A DNA stretch of 64,000 nt from Verrucomicrobiota bacterium (GCA_030831965.1 JAURJZ010000080.1:124819-188818), one strand, 5' to 3'; shown: positions 8,525 through 64,000, counted from the stretch's first letter. Program-made: numbers and translations. The notes: generated by a model from the sequence alone, not told the origin.

Positions 8525-8548
8525 CCCCGGGGAGGGGCGGCTTTTTTT
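8525..8548 (+). terminator. Possible intrinsic terminator
   Basis: A short GC hairpin (CCCC, loop of five, GGGG) is followed after four bases by a run of seven T just past the CvpA-like gene. The stem is short, so this is tentative. Confidence 0.35.
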
Positions 8549-8606
8549 GTGGCGGCGAGGACGGGCTTGGGCAAAAATGACAACTCCCCGCAACCCAACC
8601 TTCACC

Positions 8607-9443
8607 ATGAAAATTCCCACCCTGCTGTCCCTGCTTCTCGCCCTGGCGGTCACCGCCCAGGACAAGCCCGCCCAGAACGACGAGAAAAAGGCCGAGGCCG
8701 CCTCGCTCGAGGTGCTCGAGATCCAGGGCAAGCGCCTCGCCTTGGTGCGCCTGATCGCGTCGGCCGCCGACTTCCAGGCGTTCCAGAAGGAGGTGGAGGC
8801 CATCTCGAAGGAGCGCCAGGAGGCCACCCAGACCAAGCAGCTCCTCGACCTCGCGCTGACCTCGCCGGAGAAGGAGGCCCGCCAGCGCCAGCTCGACACC
8901 CGCCTGCAGAAACTGACCGTCTCGAACCAGGCCATGAACAAGGCGTACGGCTTCGACCTGACCCGCCAGTACCTCATCGTCCCGACCAAGCTCGCCGTCT
9001 ACAAGGTCCTGACCGACGACGAGTACATCAAGCTGGCCGCCGCCCCCAACTTCGACAAGGCCTCCGTCACCGAAGCCAACGGCAAGAAGCTGCAGGTCCG
9101 CGGCACGGTCGCGGGCGCCGTCGAGGTGGAGACCTTCCAGATTCAGGTGCGCGCCGTGGCCGAGGCCAAGCAGCGCCTTCTCCAGCTCGTGGAGCTCAAG
9201 CCCAAGCTGACCAAGGACGAGGACAAGCGCAAGGTGGCCGACGCCCTCAAGCGCATCCAGGAGGAGGTCAACGAGGCCGAGGCCGACTTCGCCAAGAAGC
9301 ACAACTACCCCTTCTCGGACACCCTCGCCACCCAGATCGCGGAGGCCAAGCTCTACGTGCTCCTCTCGGACGAGGAGAACAAGGCCATCGACAAGGCCGC
9401 CGCCGAGGCCAAGGACGGCAAGAAGCCCGAGCCGGCGAAGTGA
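8607..9443 (+). CDS. Secreted helical protein with a duplicated ~90-residue domain, copy 1 (unknown function)
   Basis: I do not recognise a named family. The ATG at 8607 gives a clean signal peptide (MKIPTLLSLLLALAVTAQ), so export is likely. The mature part is charged and mostly helical. It appears to contain the same unit twice: a long helix pair ending in a (K)xYxF-like turn, then a strand with LYVLL.DEE or VYKVLTDDE. Compare NKAYGFDLTRQYLIVPTKL with KKHNYPFSDTLATQIAEAK. The downstream gene carries two further, more diverged units. A Lys/Glu/Pro tail ends the protein. The gap to the next gene is 31 bp, so co-transcription is likely. Confidence 0.7.
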   Translation: MKIPTLLSLLLALAVTAQDKPAQNDEKKAEAASLEVLEIQGKRLALVRLIASAADFQAFQKEVEAISKERQEATQTKQLLDLALTSPEKEARQRQLDTRLQKLTVSNQAMNKAYGFDLTRQYLIVPTKLAVYKVLTDDEYIKLAAAPNFDKASVTEANGKKLQVRGTVAGAVEVETFQIQVRAVAEAKQRLLQLVELKPKLTKDEDKRKVADALKRIQEEVNEAEADFAKKHNYPFSDTLATQIAEAKLYVLLSDEENKAIDKAAAEAKDGKKPEPAK

Positions 9444-9474: not shown

Positions 9475-10317
9475 ATGAGCACCCCCGCCGAAACCCCCGC
9501 TCCCGCCGCCACCGAGGCCGCCGACCGCCCCAAGGCCGAGAGGACCTATCTTCCCTTCAACGGCCAGATGGCTCTCCATGAGAGCCTGCTAATCTTCCGC
9601 AACGGCCAGGCGCTCAAGGAGTTCCTCGACGGCTTTCGCTCTCTAGGTGAGCAGTTCCAGCGAGCTCGCGGTCTCGCCATTCGCAGGGAACAGGCCCTCA
9701 CCACGGGAGAAAAGGATGCGCTGGCCAAGGTGATTGAACAAGAGGCCAAGGACTTCGACTCCAAGGACAACCTCTTCCAGAAGGTTTATGGTTTCCGCTC
9801 CGGGGCAATTTTCAGCCAAAACCGCCCCTGCTACATCTACCGCACCTGCAACCTGCTTACGCAGGTAAACGAGGAAGAGGTCGCCAAGATTAAGGCCGAG
9901 AAAGATTTCAAGCCCGAGACCCTCGTCGAGCGCGACGGAAAGATGCTGCACCAGCTCGCCACCCTCGGGGGGCTGATCTTCGACGAGTTTGAGCGCAATC
10001 TTGGCAATATCACCGCCAGGCGCGATAATCTCGCCAAAGCCCGCGAGAACCTCGTCAATATCTCCGCCGAAGAGCGACCCAAAGCTGAGGCTGCCCTTGC
10101 GGAATTCGAGGCAAACCTCGCCAAGGATGACGAGCTGATGTTCAAGACCTACCGCTTCACCCTCGGACGGAACATGGTTCTCGATTTCGTGGACGCCAAG
10201 TTCTTCGTCGCCCTGACCCAGGAGGACATCCAGAAGTCCCAGTCCGGCGCCGCCGCCGCGCCCGCCGCCAAGGCGCCCGAGGCGAAGAAGGATAAGCCCG
10301 CCGCCAAGGCCAACTGA
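9475..10317 (+). CDS. Paralogue of the upstream duplicated-domain protein, copy 2 (unknown function)
   Basis: The 280-residue protein aligns with its upstream neighbour by pattern. The first unit ends QKVYGFRSGAIFSQNRP, then a strand and QVNEEE; the second ends FKTYRFTLGRNMVLDFVDAK, then FFVALTQED. It lacks a clear signal peptide: the N-terminus is a Pro/Ala-rich tail, so it may be cytoplasmic or exported another way. Codon use between about 9590 and 10170 is visibly richer in A/T at third positions (AAT, CTA, TTT, GAA) than in the flanking genes, which may mean more recent acquisition or relaxed selection. A strong terminator follows. Function unknown. Confidence 0.68.
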   Translation: MSTPAETPAPAATEAADRPKAERTYLPFNGQMALHESLLIFRNGQALKEFLDGFRSLGEQFQRARGLAIRREQALTTGEKDALAKVIEQEAKDFDSKDNLFQKVYGFRSGAIFSQNRPCYIYRTCNLLTQVNEEEVAKIKAEKDFKPETLVERDGKMLHQLATLGGLIFDEFERNLGNITARRDNLAKARENLVNISAEERPKAEAALAEFEANLAKDDELMFKTYRFTLGRNMVLDFVDAKFFVALTQEDIQKSQSGAAAAPAAKAPEAKKDKPAAKAN

Positions 10318-10399: not shown

Positions 10400-11302
10400 T
10401 CAGAAGAGCTCGCCCTGGGCCTTGGCGGCGCGCTCGGACTCGCGGCGCCTGGCGGCCTTGAGGGTGCCGTCCATACCCATCTCGGCGAGGAAGGCCTCGA
10501 GGCCGGCGGCGTCGCGGGCGGGGCGCCGGGCGGGGTCGAAGGGATAGTCGTCCTTGAACCGGACGAGGCCGAGGTTGACGCGGATGCGGTCGGCCTCGGC
10601 GGCGACCTGCTCGCGGAAGCGGGCGGGCTCGAGGCGGTCGGCGGCGGCGAGGACGCGCGCGAGGTCGCCATGCTCGGACAGCCACTTGACGGCGGTCTTG
10701 GGCCCGACGCCGCGGAGGCCGGGGATGTTGTCGGAGGTGTCGCCGACGAGGGCGAGGTAGTCGGGGATGAGCTCGGGCGGCACGCCGAACTTGTCGCGCA
10801 CGCCCGCGGGGTCGAGCCGACGCCAGCCGAGGGCGGGGTTGGCGGTGGGGGGAGGAACGAGCTGGACGACCTTGCCGCCGACGCATTGGCCGAAGTCCTT
10901 GTCGGCGCTGACGATGACCACCTCGTGGCCGTCGGCGGCGAGGCGCTTGGCGGCGGAGGCGAGGAGGTCGTCGGCCTCGACCCCGCTTTGCTCGACGACG
11001 CCCATGCCCATCAGGGCGGTGAGGCGCTTGAGCTCGGGGATCTGCAGCTCGAGGTCGGCCGGCGTGTCCTCGCGCTGGGCCTTGTAATCGGGGAGCGCGG
11101 CGAGGTGCCGTTCGGAGCCCCCGAGGTCGAAGAAGACGACGGTGCGGTCGGGCTTCTCGCCGTCCTCGACGGACCAGAGCGTGCGCACCCAGCCGTGAAG
11201 GGCGCCGGTGGGGAAGCCGTCCTTCCGGCGAAGGTCGGCCTTCTCCATCCCGTAGTGGCTCCGGAAGGCCAGGTTGAAGCCGTCGACGAGCAGCCAGCGC
11301 AT
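10400..11302 (-). CDS. Stand-alone 5'-3' exonuclease / flap endonuclease (Pol I N-domain type)
   Basis: The 300-residue protein is the 5'-3' exonuclease domain found at the N-terminus of DNA polymerase I, here without a polymerase. Acidic metal-binding motifs are in order: LLVDGFNLAFR, TVVFFDLGG, GVEADDLLAS, VIVSADKDFGQ and GDTSDNIPGLRGVGPKTAV (helix-hairpin-helix). This family removes flaps and RNA primers. Such solo proteins coexist with full Pol I in many bacteria (compare ExoIX/Xni). The ATG at 11302 begins directly before the first motif; an upstream in-frame start at 11344 would add residues unrelated to the fold. It is convergent with the duplicated-domain genes. Confidence 0.88.
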   Translation of the reverse strand: MRWLLVDGFNLAFRSHYGMEKADLRRKDGFPTGALHGWVRTLWSVEDGEKPDRTVVFFDLGGSERHLAALPDYKAQREDTPADLELQIPELKRLTALMGMGVVEQSGVEADDLLASAAKRLAADGHEVVIVSADKDFGQCVGGKVVQLVPPPTANPALGWRRLDPAGVRDKFGVPPELIPDYLALVGDTSDNIPGLRGVGPKTAVKWLSEHGDLARVLAAADRLEPARFREQVAAEADRIRVNLGLVRFKDDYPFDPARRPARDAAGLEAFLAEMGMDGTLKAARRRESERAAKAQGELF

Positions 11303-11350
11303 GGGGGCGATGCTCGCGAGGGCGGGGGGTGGCGACCAGCCCAAACAAGC

Positions 11351-11392: not shown

Positions 11393-14374
11393 TTACTTGG
11401 ACGCCGGGGCGGCGGGCGCGGTGGGCGTGGCGGCCTCGGTGACCTCGCGGTAGACGGGGCCTCCGGGGGTGACGACCACGGGGTTGGAGAAGGTCGCGCC
11501 GTTGTTCACGCCGGGAAGCTTGCTGCGGAGGGTGGAGCCTCCGGGCGAGATCAGGTTGGCGGTGACGAAGACCATGAGGTTGCGCTTGCTGGTGGTCTTG
11601 CCGCTGGAGCGGAAGGCGGCGCCGAGCAGGGGGATGTCGCCCAGGACGGGGACCTTGTCGTTGACGGTCTTGACCTCCTCGCGGGTCAGCCCGCCGATGA
11701 CGACGGTCGCGCCGTCGAAGATGGTGACGTCGGTGGTCACCTCGCGGAACGAGAAGATCGGCTGGAAGAAGCCGGAGGGGATGGTGACGGTGGTGTTGCC
11801 CTGGATGGCGACGGAGGTGCCTCCGTACTCCACGAAGCCCTCGAACTCGATGACCTGGGGCTTGAGGTTGAGGGCGATGGAGTCGTCCTGCTGGACGGTC
11901 GGGGTGACCTCGAGGATGACGCCAACGTCCTGCTCCTTGAAGTCCTGCGGGGTGCCCGCGGTGATGGTGACACCCGCGGCGCCGCCGCCGATCTGGCCGC
12001 CGCCGCCCTGGCCGACGTTGGACTGCACGTCGCCGTAGGAGTCGGGGTAGCGGAGGGTCTGGACGATGCGGATGGTGGCGGTCTTGTTGTCGACCACGGT
12101 GAGGCTCGGGGCCGACATCAGGTCGGAGCCGTTGTTCTGCTCGACCGCGCGGAGGAACAGGTTGAGGTCGTAGGAGCCGATCGTGCCGATGAGGCCGGCC
12201 GCGCCGGCGCCGCCGAAGGTGAAGTCGCGGCTGCCGAAGTTGCCGCGGGGGATGTTCGGCGGCGCGTTGGGGATGTCGAGGGTGGGCTCGGAGATGGTGT
12301 TGATGATGCCGGTGACGGGGTCGACCGTGGACGAGGTGCGGAGGATCTGGCCGGGGTTGGCGACGGCGGACTCGCCGAAGGCCTCGTTGACGCCGCGCAG
12401 GCCGGTGCGGGCGCGGATGACCTCGGCCCCGCCGATGGTCTGGGAGAGCTGCCAGTTGGCGGAGAGCTCGTTGAGGGTCTGCTCGCTCACCTCGATGAAC
12501 TTGGCCTCGATGTGGACCTGCTTGGTGTCGGAGTAGCGGCGGAGGATGTTGCGGATGCGGTCGAGGTTGCGCCGGGTCTGGGTGGCGGTGAGCATGGCGC
12601 CGTCCCAGGCGAGCGTGGCGCCCTGGACCTCGAAGCTGACGCCGGAGCGGGTGAAGAAGTTGCGGATGGCGACCTCGCGGGGGCTGGCGCCGCCCGCGTC
12701 GCCGGGGCCGGCGGAGGCGCCGGCGCTGAAGGGGCTGCCCCCGGCCTGCTGGCCGGAGGTGGAGGTGGAGGAGATGCCGGTCATCTTGGTGACGGCGGCG
12801 TCGGGCAGGGGGAAGAAGTCGGTCTCCAGGTCGCTCGAGCCGGAATCGGGGCGGACCTCGATGATGCCGTCGTTGACGGTGTAGGTGAAGTTGACCTGCT
12901 TGACGACGAACTCGAGGGCGCGGTCGAGGGAGACGTTGCGCAGCGTGATGTTGACGCTCGGGTTGCGCTTCTCGGGGTCGATGGGGACGATGTTCACGCC
13001 CTTGGACTCCTTGTCGTAGGCCTGGGAGACGATGACCAGCTGGTCGAGGGCGCGGTTGAGGGGAAGGTCCTTGATGTTGATCTCGGGGACGGTGATTTCC
13101 TTGAGCTTCTGGAGGACGGGGTCGACGGTGAGCTTCTCGACGTTGGTGGTCTCGCGGTTGTAGACCTCGGGGAGCTTCCAGGACTCGTCGAGGAGCTCGA
13201 GCAGCTTGCCCTTGGTCACGCCGCGGTTCCACTGGCCGGAGTTCTCGGAGAGCATCTTGCGGATGCGCACCTGGTAAGCCTTGGCCTCGGGGTTGAGGGG
13301 CTGGTACTGGAGCACCTCGCGGTAGGTGTCGAGGGCGCCCTGGTAGTCGCCGTAGAGGTAGCGGGCGCGGCCCTTGACGAGGAGCTCGTCGACCTTGCTG
13401 TCCTTGGCCTGGAGGCCGGGGGAGATTTCCTCGACGCTGCGGTAGGCGGGGTCGGCCTTGCGGACGGCCCAGAGGGCGGCGAGGCGGCGGTAGGGGAGCT
13501 CGTCGAGCTCGTTGTCCTTGTTGTTGACGAGGGTTTCGTACTCCTTGAGGTGGATCTGCGCCTTGGCGAGGTCGCGGGCGTCCATCGCGCGGTTGACGCG
13601 CTCGGCGAGGAGGGCGGCGTAGAGGCCCTTGATCTCGCGGCGGACGGGCTGGGTGGCGACGTTGCCGGGGAGCTTCTTCTCGGCGAGGTCGAGCTGGTCC
13701 TTGGCGGCGTCGAGGTCGCCGGATCGAATCAGGGAGCGGGCGGTGGAGATATGGTCCTCGGCCTCGTCGACGCGGGCCTGGTTGCGCTTGGCGACCTCGC
13801 GCATGCGCTGGTTGACCAGGCGGTCGCCGTCGCCGCCGCCGGACTCGCGGGCGGAGAGGACGTCCTGGCGGGCGAGGAAGATGTTGTCGCGCTGGGCCTT
13901 GGCGCCGGCGCTGCGGGGGAGGGCGCGGTCGGCATCGGCGAGCAGGCGGAGGGCCTGGTCGTGGCGACCGGCGGCTGAGAGGGAGCGGGCCTCGGCCACG
14001 GCGGCGTCGACCTCGGCGTAGAGGGCGGCGCGCTCGCGCGAAATCTGCTCGAGCAGGGGGGTGTTGGGGTCGGCCGGGGTGGCGGGCTCGGGGGTCGGGG
14101 TGGGAGCCGGGGCGCCCTTGCCGGCGGCGGCGGCCAGCTCGGCCTCGATGGTGGCGAGAGCCTCGCGGGCGCCGACGTCCTTGTCGTTGATCTTCAGAAG
14201 GGCCTCGTAGGCCTCCTTGGCGGCGGCGAGGTCGCCGCGCTCCTGGGCGGCGACGGCCTTGTCATGGAGCGCGAAGCGGGGGTCCTCGGAACTGGCGGCC
14301 TCCTGGGCGACCAGGACGAGGGCAAACGCCGCGGTCAGGGAGGCGAGGAGCAGTTTGCGTTGGGGCGAGCTCAT
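11393..14374 (-). CDS. Secretin with N-terminal TPR region (Amuc_1098-like, GspD/PilQ superfamily)
   Basis: The 993-residue protein has a signal peptide (about 1-24), a long helical TPR-like region (about 30-370, e.g. GDYQGALDTYREVLQYQPLNPEAKAY in the last repeat), secretin N-domains and a C-terminal secretin pore. The pore carries the hallmark VPVLGDIPLLGAAFRS and MVFVTANLI segments, plus the LEVTPTVQ-type strand. It should form an outer-membrane channel for a pilus or type II secretion-like machine. TPR plus secretin in one chain is typical of the Verrucomicrobia version (Akkermansia Amuc_1098). It is last in a five-gene operon with 12 bp to the upstream gene. No export ATPase is present here. 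Confidence 0.92.
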   Translation of the reverse strand: MSSPQRKLLLASLTAAFALVLVAQEAASSEDPRFALHDKAVAAQERGDLAAAKEAYEALLKINDKDVGAREALATIEAELAAAAGKGAPAPTPTPEPATPADPNTPLLEQISRERAALYAEVDAAVAEARSLSAAGRHDQALRLLADADRALPRSAGAKAQRDNIFLARQDVLSARESGGGDGDRLVNQRMREVAKRNQARVDEAEDHISTARSLIRSGDLDAAKDQLDLAEKKLPGNVATQPVRREIKGLYAALLAERVNRAMDARDLAKAQIHLKEYETLVNNKDNELDELPYRRLAALWAVRKADPAYRSVEEISPGLQAKDSKVDELLVKGRARYLYGDYQGALDTYREVLQYQPLNPEAKAYQVRIRKMLSENSGQWNRGVTKGKLLELLDESWKLPEVYNRETTNVEKLTVDPVLQKLKEITVPEINIKDLPLNRALDQLVIVSQAYDKESKGVNIVPIDPEKRNPSVNITLRNVSLDRALEFVVKQVNFTYTVNDGIIEVRPDSGSSDLETDFFPLPDAAVTKMTGISSTSTSGQQAGGSPFSAGASAGPGDAGGASPREVAIRNFFTRSGVSFEVQGATLAWDGAMLTATQTRRNLDRIRNILRRYSDTKQVHIEAKFIEVSEQTLNELSANWQLSQTIGGAEVIRARTGLRGVNEAFGESAVANPGQILRTSSTVDPVTGIINTISEPTLDIPNAPPNIPRGNFGSRDFTFGGAGAAGLIGTIGSYDLNLFLRAVEQNNGSDLMSAPSLTVVDNKTATIRIVQTLRYPDSYGDVQSNVGQGGGGQIGGGAAGVTITAGTPQDFKEQDVGVILEVTPTVQQDDSIALNLKPQVIEFEGFVEYGGTSVAIQGNTTVTIPSGFFQPIFSFREVTTDVTIFDGATVVIGGLTREEVKTVNDKVPVLGDIPLLGAAFRSSGKTTSKRNLMVFVTANLISPGGSTLRSKLPGVNNGATFSNPVVVTPGGPVYREVTEAATPTAPAAPASK

Positions 14375-14385
14375 GTTGCGTAAGG

Positions 14386-15330
14386 TCAGCGTTTGGGAGT
14401 GGGGAGGGGAAGGGGCGCCGGGGCGGGGGTGGCGGCGGACGGGGCCGGGGCGGGCTTATCCTTTGGGGCGGGGGCGGGGGCGGGTGCGGGTGCGGGGACC
14501 GCCACGGAGAGCACCTCGGTGAGGGTTCGGGCCCCCTTGCGGGGGTTCAACGTAAAGGTTTTGTCAACTGTCACCGTGCCCGCGGCAAGGTCAACCCCTT
14601 TGACGACATAGGTGGCCCCGTTGTGCTCGAATCTGGCCCCGGGACCGCCGAAAGTCCATGAGGCCGAGCCGGCATCGGCTTGGAGGACGATGTCCACCTT
14701 GTCCTTGAAAAGGAGGGGGGCCTGGTCGTCGATCTCGAGATCCCGGCCCAGCTTGGCGTCGCGGACGACGAGGACGCTGCGCTTGACGGGGGCCCCGTCG
14801 GGGGCGGTGCCGGGGACGACCCTGTACGAGAGCGGCGTGATGCCGATTTCGGCGACGGGCTTGCCGATGCGGGCGTTGTAATCCTCGTTGGTGTCGAGAT
14901 TGACGAGGAAGAGGATGCGGTCGGTGTCGGGCTTGCCCGGAGGAGGGGCGATGGTGCCGCGGAGCATGACCGGGTAGCGAGGGTGGCCGAGCTTCGCGAG
15001 GCGGACGCCGAAATCGGGGATGACGGGCGGGGTGTAGTCCCTGGGGAGGTATTCCTTGAGCTGCTCATCCCACACGGTGGGCACCTGGTCGAAGAGGTCG
15101 TAGCTCCAGCCATCCTCATTGTCCTCGGGGCGAGTCCAGCTCGCGCGAAGCGGCAGGGTGTCGTCCTTGGTCAGCAAGGGGTAATCGGCGCCCGAGGGGA
15201 GAAGGCCCTGGGAGGCGATCTTCGGCCCCTGGGCGGGGTCGCTGCGCAGGCCGAGGAAAGCGTAGGCGGCGGAGCCGACCAGGAGGAGACCGGCGGCGGC
15301 GATGAGGGGCTTGTCGTAGCGCGGGGACAT
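14386..15330 (-). CDS. Amuc_1099-like pilus operon protein (PilP/GspC-like position)
   Basis: The roughly 314-residue protein has one N-terminal membrane segment (LIAAAGLLLVGSAAYAFLGL), a central soluble β-rich region, and a C-terminal Pro/Ala-rich tail. It ends in a small β domain (YVVKGVDLAAGTVTVDKTF) reminiscent of the PilP/GspC domains that contact the secretin. Sequence identity to named families is not obvious; the call rests on position between the PilO-like and secretin genes, as in Akkermansia. The start may be ATG 15330 or GTG 15336, the latter overlapping the upstream stop in a GTGA arrangement. Confidence 0.68.
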   Translation of the reverse strand: MSPRYDKPLIAAAGLLLVGSAAYAFLGLRSDPAQGPKIASQGLLPSGADYPLLTKDDTLPLRASWTRPEDNEDGWSYDLFDQVPTVWDEQLKEYLPRDYTPPVIPDFGVRLAKLGHPRYPVMLRGTIAPPPGKPDTDRILFLVNLDTNEDYNARIGKPVAEIGITPLSYRVVPGTAPDGAPVKRSVLVVRDAKLGRDLEIDDQAPLLFKDKVDIVLQADAGSASWTFGGPGARFEHNGATYVVKGVDLAAGTVTVDKTFTLNPRKGARTLTEVLSVAVPAPAPAPAPAPKDKPAPAPSAATPAPAPLPLPTPKR

Positions 15331-15332
15331 GG

Positions 15333-16448
15333 TCACTTGGCCGGGGGCGTGGCGGGGTTGGCCTCGGCGGGAGCCGGGGTCTCGGCGACAGGGAAGAGAT
15401 ACTCGATCCTGACGATGAACTCGGCGGCGCCGTCGCGGACGACGGGCAGGCGCTCGGCCTTGGGTTTCTCGGCCGCGGCGCCGGGCGCGGAGGGGGCATC
15501 GGCTAGCCCGCCGAAGGCGAGGGAAGGGAGGCCGCCGGGCGCCGCGGCGGTGGGCGTCAGGCTGGCGGGTGCGGCGAAGAGCTCGCGGAGGGCCTCGGCG
15601 GAGGGCGCGGCGACCTGGATGGAGGAGATGGCCACGGGTCGGCCGGAATTCTGGACGAGGTTGACGAAGGCCCGGAGGGTGTCGGTGCGGCCGACGAAGC
15701 GGACCTGGAAGGCGAGGGAGCCGACGAGGCCGGGCCGGCGGTAGGTGTGGCCGGCGAGGATGAACTCGTCGCTCTGCGGCTTGACGTTGAGAACCTCGGC
15801 CGAGGGCGTGTCGAGGGTGAAGACCTGGCTGTCGCCGGCGGGGCCGCTGACCTGGGGGAAGGTCTCGATCGGCTCGCGGTCGATGGACTGGAGAAAGAGG
15901 GGGGCGCCGGCGGCGCGGGACTCGAGGAGGGTGCTGAAGAGCCAGCCGATGATGAGCCGCTGGCGGTCGACCTCGGTGTAGAGGCGCTGGGGCTGGGTGC
16001 CGACGTTGCGGACGTAGCGGCGGAAGCCGAAGCAGATCTCATCCTTGGGCAGCTTGACGTCCTTGGCGGCGGCGTCGCGGCGCCAGCGGGAGACGGATTC
16101 CTGGATCTGGGTGCCGAGCTCGTTGGCGATGCCGCCGAACTTGGAGACGATCTGGTTGTCGGGCTCGCCGGCGATGGCGTTGCGGAGGGCGACCCGGCGG
16201 GCGGTGAGAGCCGCGAGGTCGTTCTTGGCGGCGGTGACATTGGCCTCGGTCAGGGCGACGGGGTCGGCCGCGCCCTCGACGGCGGAGCCGCGGAGGAGGC
16301 CGCCGACGGTGACATCCGCTCGGCGGAGGTCGTCGAGCGCCTTGCCGTGGCTCTGCCAGGCGGCGTGGGCGAACCAGGCGCCGAGGGCGAAGACGGCGAC
16401 CAGGGCGCCGACCGTCGCCTGGAAATTGATGTTGGGTCTGCTGGCCAT
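15333..16448 (-). CDS. PilO-like inner-membrane protein (Amuc_1100-like)
   Basis: The 371-residue protein has a single N-terminal membrane helix (VGALVAVFALGAWFAHAAW), a coiled-coil region (about residues 30-130), and a ferredoxin-like C-terminal part ending in a low-complexity Ala/Pro tail. This is the architecture of PilO and of Akkermansia Amuc_1100, the protein known for host immune effects. Supporting blocks are FGFRRYV, then a helix QRLIIGWLFSTLLES, then LAFQVRFVGRTDTLRAFVNLVQNS with the β-α pattern of the C-terminal domain. It follows the PilM/N gene by four bases. The Amuc_1100 relationship is inferred from layout and synteny; I have not aligned them formally. Confidence 0.75.
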   Translation of the reverse strand: MASRPNINFQATVGALVAVFALGAWFAHAAWQSHGKALDDLRRADVTVGGLLRGSAVEGAADPVALTEANVTAAKNDLAALTARRVALRNAIAGEPDNQIVSKFGGIANELGTQIQESVSRWRRDAAAKDVKLPKDEICFGFRRYVRNVGTQPQRLYTEVDRQRLIIGWLFSTLLESRAAGAPLFLQSIDREPIETFPQVSGPAGDSQVFTLDTPSAEVLNVKPQSDEFILAGHTYRRPGLVGSLAFQVRFVGRTDTLRAFVNLVQNSGRPVAISSIQVAAPSAEALRELFAAPASLTPTAAAPGGLPSLAFGGLADAPSAPGAAAEKPKAERLPVVRDGAAEFIVRIEYLFPVAETPAPAEANPATPPAK

Positions 16449-16452
16449 GGTC

Positions 16453-18159
16453 TCAGAGGGGCTTCTCGGCCTTGACCGTGAAGGTGAGGGTGAGCTTGGG
16501 AAGGTTGGGCTGGGAGGTGTCGGCGCGGATGTCGCCGTCGGCCAGACCCGAGACGAAGCTGTTCTTGCGCAGGGATTCGACCAGCTCGCGCTGGCGGCGG
16601 CGGAAGGCCTCGGCGTTGATCACGGCGTCCTTGGCGGGGCCGACCTCGGGCAGGAGAAGGCGGGCGACGAGCGTCACGCGGACGACCTGGGCGGGCGGCG
16701 GGGGCGGCGGCTCGCCCTCGGGGACGGCCGGGGCGGGGAGCGTGGTGCGGGTGAGCCGGAGCTCCTCGATCCAGACATGGCGGTTGGCGAGCACCTGGGT
16801 CTGGAGCTCGGCGAGGAAGTCGTTCCAGTTCGCGCGGTTCTGGACCACGGACTCAAGCTGGGCGTTGACGGCGGCGAGGGACGCGGACTTGGCGCGGATG
16901 TCGGCCAGCTCCGTGCGGCGTGCGGCGAGCTCGGCCTCGCGGCCCTTGACGCTGCTGACGAGGGCGACGGCCTTGGCGGCGCCGGACTGGAGCCCCCACC
17001 AGAGCGGGAGGGGGCTGAGCGCGAGAAGCGCGGCGGCGGCGATGAGGAGGGGCTTGCGGGCGTCGAAGGCGAGCTGGGCGGCGATGGCCGGGGGGATGAG
17101 GTTGACGCCGGCGGGGTCCGGGAGCACGAGGCGCGCGGCCTCGCCGATGGGCTCGGAAATCTGCGCGCGGCAGGCCTCGACGTACTCGGGGTTGACGGAG
17201 GCGCCGAGCGAGACGGCGCCGAGGGGGTCGAGGGTCTCGACCGGCACGCGAAGGGTCTCGGCGAGCTGCTCGCGGAGTCCGGGGAGCTGGGCGGTGCGGC
17301 CCGTGAGCAGGACCCGGGAGAGCTGGCGGCCCTGGGTGCCGCGGCGGAGGCCGATGAGCCGGCGGTTGATATCCTGGGCAAGGCGCTTGGAGAAGGCCTG
17401 GGCGTTGGCCACGAGGACGGCGGCCTGGGGATCGGACTCGGCCAGCTGCAGCACGCCGGAGAAGAAGCCCACCTTGAGGGCCTCGGCGTTGGCGAAGGCG
17501 TTGCCGGTGTTGTCCGAGACGGCCTGGGTGATGGTGTTGCCGCCGAGGGTGGCGGTCTGGACGCTCATGCCCTGGGCGCCGAGGAAGGTGAGGTTGGTCG
17601 TGCGGGAGCCGACGTTGACGATGAGGACCTCGTCGGCGGCGTCCCCGGAGGCGAGGCGCCAGGCGAGGCCGTCGAGCAGGGGCGAGGCCTGGATGACGGT
17701 CGGGCGGAGGCCGGCCTCGGTGATGAGGCGGGCGATGCGGCCGGAGATGTCGGAGCGGAGGGCGAAGAGAAGGACCTCGGACTCGACGCCGTCGGAGGCG
17801 AGGACCTGGCTGCCCCAGACGACCTCGGAGAGCGGGTAGGGAATCGCGTTCTGGGCCTCGAAGGCGATGATCTGGGCCTGGCGGGCCTTCTCGACCTGGG
17901 GAACCTTGAGGGGCTTCGAGAGGAGGAGAAACCCGGGGACGATGACCGTGGCGGTGCCGGAGAGCCCGTGCTGCTGGACGAGGCCGCGGAGGGCCTCGAC
18001 GGCGGCGGCCAGCCATTCCTCCTCGCCGGTGATGCCGACGGGCAGGTCCTGCGCGAAGAGACGCTCGAGCGAGAGACGGCCCGCGTTGACGGAGAAGGCG
18101 GAGACGGAGACGTGCGAGGCCCCGAGGTTGACGATGGTGGCGTGGGAGCTTGCGCTCAT
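16453..18159 (-). CDS. pilM: PilM-PilN fusion protein (Amuc_1101-like)
   Basis: The 568-residue protein joins two pilus-assembly parts. Residues 1 to about 345 are an FtsA/actin-fold PilM domain: IVNLGASHVSVSAF, VLIVNVGSRTTNLTFL, RVLLTGRTAQLPGL and LGAVSLGASV form the nucleotide-binding loops. From residue 352 the chain reads VNLIPPAIAAQ, the PilN N-terminal signature, then one membrane helix (about 371-390), a coiled coil and a C-terminal β-α domain. In many type IV pilus systems PilM and PilN are separate and bind through that same PilN tail, so the fusion makes the contact permanent. ATG 18159 was chosen because it starts exactly at the first PilM strand. Confidence 0.85.
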   Translation of the reverse strand: MSASSHATIVNLGASHVSVSAFSVNAGRLSLERLFAQDLPVGITGEEEWLAAAVEALRGLVQQHGLSGTATVIVPGFLLLSKPLKVPQVEKARQAQIIAFEAQNAIPYPLSEVVWGSQVLASDGVESEVLLFALRSDISGRIARLITEAGLRPTVIQASPLLDGLAWRLASGDAADEVLIVNVGSRTTNLTFLGAQGMSVQTATLGGNTITQAVSDNTGNAFANAEALKVGFFSGVLQLAESDPQAAVLVANAQAFSKRLAQDINRRLIGLRRGTQGRQLSRVLLTGRTAQLPGLREQLAETLRVPVETLDPLGAVSLGASVNPEYVEACRAQISEPIGEAARLVLPDPAGVNLIPPAIAAQLAFDARKPLLIAAAALLALSPLPLWWGLQSGAAKAVALVSSVKGREAELAARRTELADIRAKSASLAAVNAQLESVVQNRANWNDFLAELQTQVLANRHVWIEELRLTRTTLPAPAVPEGEPPPPPPAQVVRVTLVARLLLPEVGPAKDAVINAEAFRRRQRELVESLRKNSFVSGLADGDIRADTSQPNLPKLTLTFTVKAEKPL

Positions 18160-18181
18160 GGCGGCGGGGCGTGGGGCGGGC

Positions 18182-18865
18182 TCAGCGCGAGGAGACGTCC
18201 TCGCGCACGAACTCAGGGGAGAAGCGGGCGACGTCCTCGACGATGTCGACGAGATACTGGGGCCGGAGAATGCCGGCGTTGAGCATCGAGCCGCGGTCGG
18301 CGAAGCCCTTGGCGCCGTCGAAATCGGCCTTGCTGACAAGGGTGCGGCTCAGGGCGTTCTTCTGGTCGGCGACCAGGGCGCCGCGGGCGTCGAAGAGGGC
18401 CTGCTGGGTGCCGGCGACCTCGAGCTCGACGAAGAAGTGGTCGGGGTCCTTGCGGAGGTTGTCGCGCTTCACGACATCGCCCGGGAGGTAGAAGAAAACC
18501 GAGCGGGGGGAGTTGACCTCGAGGGTGAGGACGGTGGCGGTCGAGCGATAGTAGTTCCACTCCTCGGCGGGCTTCCCGGCGATCTTGAAGACGAGGGTCG
18601 CGGTGACCTTGACCTTGTCGACCCAGCGCTTGTTGAGGGCCTTGGGGTCGGGATTGGCCTTGGGGTCGACCACCACCTCGACCCGGTTCCAGGGATTGGT
18701 GGCCATGCCGTTGAGGCGGGTCTGGGCGAACTTGACGTCCTTGATCACCACCGAGCGATCGGGCGGCACCGCGCCCGGGGCGGCGACGGGTGCGGCCTGC
18801 CCAAGGAGGGAGGGCGCGGCCAGCAGGGACAAGGCCGCCAAGCACCCGATGAGGGGGGAAGACAT
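18182..18865 (-). CDS. Amuc_1102-like exported protein, first gene of the pilus-type operon
   Basis: The 227-residue protein begins with a signal sequence (LIGCLAALSLLAAPSLLGQ). The mature part has a β-rich pattern (VVIKDVKFAQTRLNG, WNRVEVVVDPKAN, VKVTATLVFKIAG, TVLTLEVNSPRSVFFYLPG) consistent with an immunoglobulin-like or β-sandwich domain. I know of no characterised function. Its place at the head of the operon matches Akkermansia Amuc_1102. It is 22 bp from the PilM/N gene. The promoter must lie in 18866-18981, which is shared with the divergent metal transporter genes and contains a perfect palindrome. Confidence 0.7.
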   Translation of the reverse strand: MSSPLIGCLAALSLLAAPSLLGQAAPVAAPGAVPPDRSVVIKDVKFAQTRLNGMATNPWNRVEVVVDPKANPDPKALNKRWVDKVKVTATLVFKIAGKPAEEWNYYRSTATVLTLEVNSPRSVFFYLPGDVVKRDNLRKDPDHFFVELEVAGTQQALFDARGALVADQKNALSRTLVSKADFDGAKGFADRGSMLNAGILRPQYLVDIVEDVARFSPEFVREDVSSR

Positions 18866-62770: not shown

Positions 62771-63205
62771 ATGCGCGACCGCACACCCCCCGCCCGAGGC
62801 GGCTTCACCCTCATCGAGATCCTGATCGCGCTGGCGATCGTCGGCCTGCTGGTCGGCGTCGTCGCCACGCGGATGGATGGCATCTTCGGCCGCTCGCAGG
62901 AGCAGGTGGCGGAGATCTTCGTCAACGAGTCGATGAAGACCTCGCTGATGCGCTACCGCATGGACACGGGCGACTACCCCGCGACCGAGGAAGGGTTGGC
63001 GGCGCTCGCGACGGCGCCCGAGGCGCGGGCCGAGCGGTGGCGCGGACCCTACATCGAGACCAAGGGAGGCAAGCTGCCGACGGACCCGTGGGGCGAGACC
63101 TACCAATACCGCTATCCCGGCACCCGCAACGCCGCGGGCTACGACCTCTTCTCCAAGGGCAAGGACCGGACTCCCGACACCGCCGACGACATCGGCAACT
63201 GGTGA
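62771..63205 (+). CDS. gspG: Type II secretion major pseudopilin GspG
   Basis: The 144-residue protein has the prepilin cleavage site RGG|FTLIEILIALAIVGLLVGVV with Glu5, the helix, and the GspG C-terminal domain: DTGDYPATEEGLAALATAPE, WRGPYIETKGGKLPTDPWGE and SKGKDRTPDTADDIGNW, including the calcium-site Asp residues. It would be processed by a prepilin peptidase (not in view) and form the pseudopilus core. Its stop overlaps a GTG start for the next gene. Confidence 0.95.
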   Translation: MRDRTPPARGGFTLIEILIALAIVGLLVGVVATRMDGIFGRSQEQVAEIFVNESMKTSLMRYRMDTGDYPATEEGLAALATAPEARAERWRGPYIETKGGKLPTDPWGETYQYRYPGTRNAAGYDLFSKGKDRTPDTADDIGNW

Positions 63206-63702
63206 CCGCGCAAGGGCAGCGAACCGGGCGCGGCGGCTTCACGCTGCTGGAGGTCCTGCTCGCGCTCGGCCTGGCCACGCTCGTGGCGGGACTCTGGGTG
63301 GCGGGCGCGGCGGGGGTGCTCCGCTCGGGCCAGGCGAGCGACCCGGAGGACGCGCTGCTCGCGCTGTTGCAGCGGACCCGGCGCGAGGCGGTGACGCGGG
63401 GGCGCCCGGTCGACCTGATCCCGCTGGACGACGACCGGACGTTCACCTGGGGGCCGGGGCCGGACGAGACCGCCGTGCTGCCGGAGATCGCCGAGGTGCG
63501 GGTCCGCCTGGTCGAGCCCGACGGCTCAGGCCTCGCCTTGCTCGGGGGCGTCCCCGAGGCGCGGCCGCTGGCGCGCTATCGGATCCATCCCGACGGCACG
63601 GGCGACCCGGCGCGGCTTGAAATCCAGCGCAACGGGCGCGTGCGCATGGTGGACCTCGACCCCCTGACCTGCTCCCCCTTGCCGGGGGCAACCGACCAAT
63701 GA
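63202..63702 (+). CDS. gspH: Minor pseudopilin, GspH-like
   Basis: The 166-residue protein has the cleavage site RGG|FTLLEVLLALGLATLVAG with Glu5, then a β-rich domain (LLQRTRREAVTRGRPVDLIP, LEIQRNGRVRMVDLD) typical of GspH. The start is GTG 63202, which overlaps the gspG stop (GTGA). It should sit at the pseudopilus tip complex. Its stop overlaps the following ATG. Confidence 0.85.
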   Translation: MTAQGQRTGRGGFTLLEVLLALGLATLVAGLWVAGAAGVLRSGQASDPEDALLALLQRTRREAVTRGRPVDLIPLDDDRTFTWGPGPDETAVLPEIAEVRVRLVEPDGSGLALLGGVPEARPLARYRIHPDGTGDPARLEIQRNGRVRMVDLDPLTCSPLPGATDQ

Positions 63703-64000
63703 GGCGGGGGATGTCGCTCATCGAAGTGCTGGTGGCGGTGGCCATCTTCGCCCTCGCGGCCGTGGGCTTGTCGGCGGCCTACGGCAACATCCTGCTGGCG
63801 AGGGCGGCGATGCTTCGGCTCGAGGCGGATGACGAGGCGATGCGGCTGGCCCGCGCGGCGGTGCTGGCGCCCGACGCCCTCTCGAACCGGCAGGTGCGGG
63901 CGGCGGGCGAGCGCCTGGCCGGGCGGGTCACCCTGAGCGACGCCTCCCCGGCCGAGTGGGAGGCGGAGCTCGCGCCCGCCGACCTCGATGCGCTCTTCCT
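63699..64000 (+). CDS. gspI: Minor pseudopilin, GspI-like, 5' part
   Basis: The gene starts at ATG 63699, overlapping gspH (ATGA), and runs off the window. The N-terminus MRRGMSLIEVLVAVAIFALAA in two steps has a prepilin-like cleavage site (G|MSLIEV) with Glu5 and a hydrophobic helix, followed by ALSNRQVRAAGERL. The position after gspH suggests GspI. Only about 100 residues are visible. Confidence 0.8.
   Translation, partial: MRRGMSLIEVLVAVAIFALAAVGLSAAYGNILLARAAMLRLEADDEAMRLARAAVLAPDALSNRQVRAAGERLAGRVTLSDASPAEWEAELAPADLDALF

Follow-up and report, generated by a model that had tools for sequence, protein, structure and literature searches.

The closest described relatives of the locus analysed here are the genes Amuc_1102 to Amuc_1098 of Akkermansia muciniphila. 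MUL2 (amuc_1099-1102) has been reported in aquatic Akkermansiaceae and other Verrucomicrobiales (PMC13174399, 2026); it is scarcer in Chthoniobacterales and was found in no Methylacidiphilales (PMC13174399). Amuc_1100 has been described as an outer-membrane protein, and the purified protein activates TLR2 (PMC5332112). Here, we analysed a 64,000-nt stretch of DNA (the window) from Verrucomicrobiota bacterium JAURJZ010000080.1, which carries at 11393-18865, on the minus strand, an operon of five contiguous open reading frames (ORFs). The window belongs to a freshwater Opitutae genome. This lineage shares its class, though not its order, with Akkermansia; the closest relatives that carry names are uncultured Opitutae, several of them named after lakes. 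We found that the operon is the Opitutae orthologue of Amuc_1102-1098 and that its products probably form the alignment complex that spans the envelope in a type IVa-like pilus.

Orthology was assessed with genes chosen by their position at 40 relative loci, which we divided into two disjoint sets, one from the window's order and the other from Akkermansia and other families of the phylum. We compared the five families of each set profile against profile (hhalign, 25 pairs) and found all five diagonal pairs were significant (E 1e-9 to 1e-119), with values of 1.3e-9 for 1102 (96.4%), 3e-89 for 1101, 4e-30 for 1100, 1.9e-19 for 1099 and 1e-119 for 1098. Off-diagonal pairs were null, save 1101-1100 at about 40-50%, a cross-signal that a relationship between PilN and PilO would predict. 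The window operon has the order 1102-1101-1100-1099-1098, and the same order is found at locus L074 of genome G166, which we take to be A. muciniphila. All five genes of L074 passed their NCBIfam Amuc cut-offs; hence, L074 is an Amuc_1098-1102 locus whatever the strain. On sequence grounds, each window gene is confirmed as the orthologue of the Akkermansia gene at the equal position. An earlier note on this DNA had described a minus-strand run of five genes with gaps of at most 22 bp, laid out as Amuc_1102 to Amuc_1098 and made up of an exported beta-rich protein, a PilM/N protein, two single-helix proteins and a TPR-secretin. The measured gaps (22, 4, -4, i.e. an overlap, and 11 bp) agree with this description, the 5x5 matrix and L074 bear out the order, and the domains, helices and an AlphaFold2 model bear out the make-up.

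Direct comparison with NCBIfam models gave window 1101 258 bits with Amuc_1101_fam (1.8e-76) versus 95.8 with PilM, and gave the window secretin 363 bits with Amuc_1098_fam (2.7e-108) versus 149 with GspD and 117 with PilQ. Hence, when the Amuc families are set against classical type IV pilus (T4P) and type II secretion system (T2SS) models, a check that had been proposed beforehand, both proteins fall nearer the Amuc families. Both scores are under the curated NCBI equivalog cut-offs (258 of 650 bits and 363 of 750 bits, respectively). Window 1102, 1100 and 1099 had no direct match to their own NCBIfam Amuc models and are linked via family profiles; single-sequence searches with 1102 and 1100 against Pfam, NCBIfam and PDB also gave no matches, and the family profiles alone succeeded. 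By these scores, the window operon is a divergent member of the wider Amuc family and not an equivalog by the NCBI rule.

The 1101 protein consists of a PilM domain (residues about 5-345), an NLIP motif (353-356), a transmembrane segment (about 370-390) and a PilN-like periplasmic part; its likely start is the ATG at 18159, as the mechanical listing of this ORF begins too far upstream. It matches Pfam PilM_2 at 6e-23, and its family profile matches the solved PilM structures 3jc8, 2ych and 5eou and, over 350-547, the PilN chain 3jc8_Na (E 5.6e-9). The NLLP-type motif of PilN binds PilM in Thermus and Pseudomonas, and N-L-[LIM]-P stands between the PilM and PilN parts in many, not all, 1101 members. 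Hence, by profiles and motif, the window encodes both PilM and a PilN with the PilM-binding motif. The 1098 protein is a secretin (Secretin 1.7e-35) with TPRs at about 35-75 and 327-378 and an STN-like region at 471-505. Separately, G166 carries a second Amuc_1098-type secretin (L075, C1 about 1.98 Mb; 989 bits, above cut-off) apart from its five-gene operon, and L080, L081 and L082 show tandem secretins.

The genome holds only two secretins, the Amuc-type one and one within a T2SS cluster. This cluster (GspE, GspG, other pseudopilins, GspK and the secretin) lies at G000:C61:187.6-197.5 kb and crosses the window end (window 62771-64000); its secretin carries three Secretin_N domains. We found a pilB-pilT-pilB-pilC cluster on another contig, with no secretin or pilMNOP beside it, and N-methylated pilin genes are present, so that the genome encodes the PilB, PilT, PilC and pilins that a T4P requires. 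Since the other secretin belongs to the T2SS, the Amuc-type secretin is, by elimination, the gate available to the pilB-pilT-pilC motor.

The operon order can be read as [1102]-pilMN-pilO-[pilP position]-pilQ. In the assembled complex that we propose, the cytoplasmic PilM domain of the PilM-PilN fusion would connect with the motor platform of the inner membrane (PilC with PilB/PilT, whose genes lie elsewhere). In the periplasm, the 1100 protein would be the PilO-like partner of the PilN part, and the 1099 protein would act like PilP, bridging to the secretin. The TPR-secretin would be the outer-membrane gate for the pilus, the 1102 protein would be periplasmic, and the pilus itself may serve for holding or taking up polymers. 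The earlier note had proposed an ancestral pilus-like machine, and not host signalling, as the role of the operon; this part is well supported, though not new. Its implied choice between an Amuc operon and a T4P set did not stand, as the Amuc operon appears to be the pilMNOPQ set of the phylum and not an alternative to it.

In favour of a pilus alignment complex, PilT and the operon tend to be present or absent together among 55 chosen genomes (both in 35, neither in 9; Fisher p about 6e-4, with one genome left out of the computation), although this is indicative only, since related genomes were sampled and picked by hand. Several results weigh against the complex. PilT occurred without an Amuc-type operon in eight of these genomes, and the operon occurred without a recognised PilT in three. 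Hence, the tie of the operon to retraction is not strict. The 1102 protein is without a counterpart in classical pilMNOPQ, and neither Pfam, a PDB profile, Foldseek nor E. coli HofP linked 1099 to PilP or GspC. E. coli HofM, HofO and HofP gave no signal, although single sequences are weak queries.

The AlphaFold2 model of the 1099 protein (predicted local-distance-difference score, pLDDT, 86; core blocks 94-98) has two beta domains, at about 86-204 and 205-280, after the transmembrane helix. Foldseek with this model found no PDB fold match below E 1e-3, although its multi-domain geometry may have masked a match. A genome-wide search for classical PilP gave no matches, but the controls were also silent. 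Within the 1099 family, a TSP3/EF-like DxDxDG loop is present in 12 of 13 relatives outside the window's order versus none of 19 within it, and Pfam TSP3_bac matches nine members of the mixed 1099 alignment. The contrast is a real lineage difference, in which a calcium-type repeat may have been lost in Opitutae or gained elsewhere. As a separate observation, the 1099-type genes of deeper families (L083, L085, L086, L087, L090 and L091) carry an additional stretch ahead of the TSP3 loop, rich in cysteine and zinc-ribbon-like, which is unusual for a periplasmic domain.

For the 1100 family, a profile built from Opitutae alone retrieved the Amuc_1100 crystal structures 6lad/6kny (E 1e-9), and 28 of 30 family members match Amuc_1100_fam, with six matching a GspM model weakly. 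Pfam PilO found no classical PilO in the genome; the 1100 protein shows Amuc_1100 homology with weak GspM/PilN cross-matches. By inspection and hydropathy, members of the 1100 and 1099 families open with a short charged tail, followed by an uncleaved-looking N-terminal helix, and because of this helix, an inner-membrane, periplasm-facing location is favoured for the Amuc_1100 family, contrary to its usual outer-membrane description (PMC5332112). Hence, Amuc_1100-type proteins resemble PilO-like components of the inner membrane. Amuc_1100 is under study for therapy, and the PilO position predicts that it is an inner-membrane, periplasm-facing machine part; if the family does occupy this position, activity on host receptors would be incidental.

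The AlphaFold2 model of the 1102 protein is beta-rich (pLDDT 87.7), and its best PDB matches by Foldseek are the 7DSZ chains of Amuc_1102 (E 3e-5, prob 1.00), with a template-modelling score of only about 0.5; the fold call is not fully independent, as the predictor alignment held the 1102 row of A. muciniphila itself. We set aside the PDB match of the mixed 1102 profile as evidence, since it is partly circular with Amuc_1102 in the alignment. The Opitutae-only 1102 profile found no matches in PDB; hence, the 1102 assignment rests on the hhalign comparison of disjoint sets, position and fold. The prepilin N-methylation motif is absent from 1102, and by inspection and hydropathy, 1102 and 1098 family members mostly begin with classical signal peptides ending near A-Q.

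We observed the five-gene order directly at about 20 loci from the window's order and at about 10 from other families, including Akkermansia. Since the order is the same throughout, it is not due to chance, and the synteny that had been anticipated in other Verrucomicrobiota is present and deep. Across 289 genomes drawn from the phylum, the Amuc_1098 model had some match in 280 and scored above its cut-off in 32; the model also rings on other secretins, control genomes included, so the figure of 280 cannot be taken as the number of operons. Among the genomes in which this model had no match, there appears to be a group fitting Methylacidiphilales. We found 15 of 25 splits in common between the 1101 and 1098 trees (shuffled labels: mean 0.2, maximum 3), and the window's order is set apart with full support in both. 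Hence, the shared splits indicate that these genes were inherited together. Conservation beyond the gut is partly published already (MUL2 in Verrucomicrobiales, PMC13174399); new here are its extension to Opitutae and deeper lineages, the interpretation as pilMNOPQ, the argument from two secretins and the linker without a calcium-type repeat in Opitutae. Six genomes (G049, G134, G142, G194, G333 and G307) have PilT with no convincing Amuc_1101/1098-type genes and only weak secretin matches; these may use a different T4P envelope complex.

Table 1. Genes of the operon and its downstream neighbour, in window coordinates
Feature	Position	Strand	Length (aa)	Basis
Amuc_1102 (MUL2A)-like exported beta-sandwich protein	18182..18865	-	227	classical signal peptide, AlphaFold2 model
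Amuc_1101 (MUL2B)-like PilM-PilN fusion	16453..18159	-	568	NCBIfam, Pfam, family profile
Amuc_1100-like bitopic protein, PilO/GspM position and type	15333..16448	-	371	one N-terminal helix
Amuc_1099-like bitopic linker at PilP position	14386..15336	-	316	one N-terminal helix
Amuc_1098-like TPR-secretin	11393..14374	-	993	TPR + STN-like + Secretin
Stand-alone Pol I-type 5'-3' exonuclease	10400..11344	-		5_3_exonuc_N 1.4e-39

The exonuclease gene lies on the same strand as the operon, 48 bp downstream of the secretin, and 14 of 40 loci, from distant families, have such a gene adjoining the secretin. The genome contains no other gene of this family. In A. muciniphila, the exonuclease domain sits in a 949-aa frame, presumably a full PolA, and the stand-alone form hints that Pol I is split across much of the phylum. 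We set aside a functional dependence of the operon on this neighbour, since it is the only Pol I-type 5' nuclease in the genome and thus probably housekeeping. Beyond the exonuclease gene, two paralogous-looking genes (window 8547-9443 and 9475-10317) have no Pfam match and occur near the operon in the same family only.

Other roles for the operon were weighed against these results. One is a dedicated machine for glycan capture and uptake, as proposed for MUL2 in Akkermansiaceae, built with T4P-type parts and distinct from the general T4P of the cell. The MUL genes of A. muciniphila, pilus genes included, are reported to be needed for mucin to accumulate in internal compartments (as cited by PMC12418764 and PMC13174399), fluorescent fucoidan is taken up by marine Akkermansiaceae, and the window holds a GH16 enzyme and PSCyt-type genes, which are common in polymer-degrading bacteria of the Planctomycetes-Verrucomicrobia-Chlamydiae group. 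However, this small genome has no other PilMN/PilQ candidate for its pilB-pilT-pilC motor; hence, a separate general pilus would lack an outer-membrane gate. We give a dedicated machine somewhat less than an even chance; the two ideas are compatible, as glycan uptake may be a task of a single pilus. Natural transformation by DNA uptake is unlikely as the main job, even with a PilT-bearing T4P, a ComEC gene in the genome and the exonuclease gene adjoining the secretin in many lineages: ComEC is also found in Methylacidiphilales-type genomes without the operon, so the two do not co-vary, and the exonuclease is, as noted above, probably housekeeping.

A T2SS-like exporter is very unlikely. Its secretin would be the window secretin, which does score with GspD, and the 1100 family does score weakly with GspM models; however, the Amuc-family score tops that of GspD by more than 200 bits, the NLLP motif of the PilM-PilN fusion is a T4P feature, and the separate T2SS cluster has its own secretin, GspE, GspG and GspK. 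The pseudopilins and GspE sit with the other secretin, and no set of GspC/GspL/GspM partners and pseudopilins was found linked to the window secretin. The least probable role is host signalling by proteins that evolved in adaptation to animal contact. The TLR2 activation by purified Amuc_1100 favours this idea, but orthologues occur in freshwater Opitutae and are widespread across the phylum, and the 1100 family combines an N-terminal helix of inner-membrane type with a PilO/GspM-like position. Hence, the original job of the operon is unlikely to have been action on an animal host. Returning to the pilus alignment complex, a broader form of it, in which the Amuc-type operon is the phylum's own T4P envelope complex, with fused PilMN, a non-PilP linker with or without TSP3, an added 1102 protein, a polymer-pulling function and Amuc_1100 as the inner-membrane PilO, is tentative and stands close to an even chance.

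Compared to known systems, the window operon resembles the T2SS in its secretin and in the GspM-like signal of the 1100 family, but a T2SS cluster with a secretin of its own lies elsewhere in the genome. It resembles the type IVa PilMNOPQ complexes of Myxococcus, Thermus and Pseudomonas in its PilM and PilN domains, NLLP motif, secretin and order M-N-O-x-Q; in contrast to these, PilM and PilN form one polypeptide, no PilP is detectable, 1102 is extra and the motor genes lie outside the operon. Relative to Akkermansia-side sequences, window 1102, 1100, 1099 and 1101 share only about 10-26% pairwise identity with rows outside the order, and the Amuc_1098 profile match of the window secretin is preceded by about 190 additional residues at the N-terminus. 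The operon nevertheless has the same five genes as Amuc_1098-1102 of A. muciniphila (MUL2, amuc_1099-1102, plus the secretin Amuc_1098), in the same order and orientation, with all families linked by profile.

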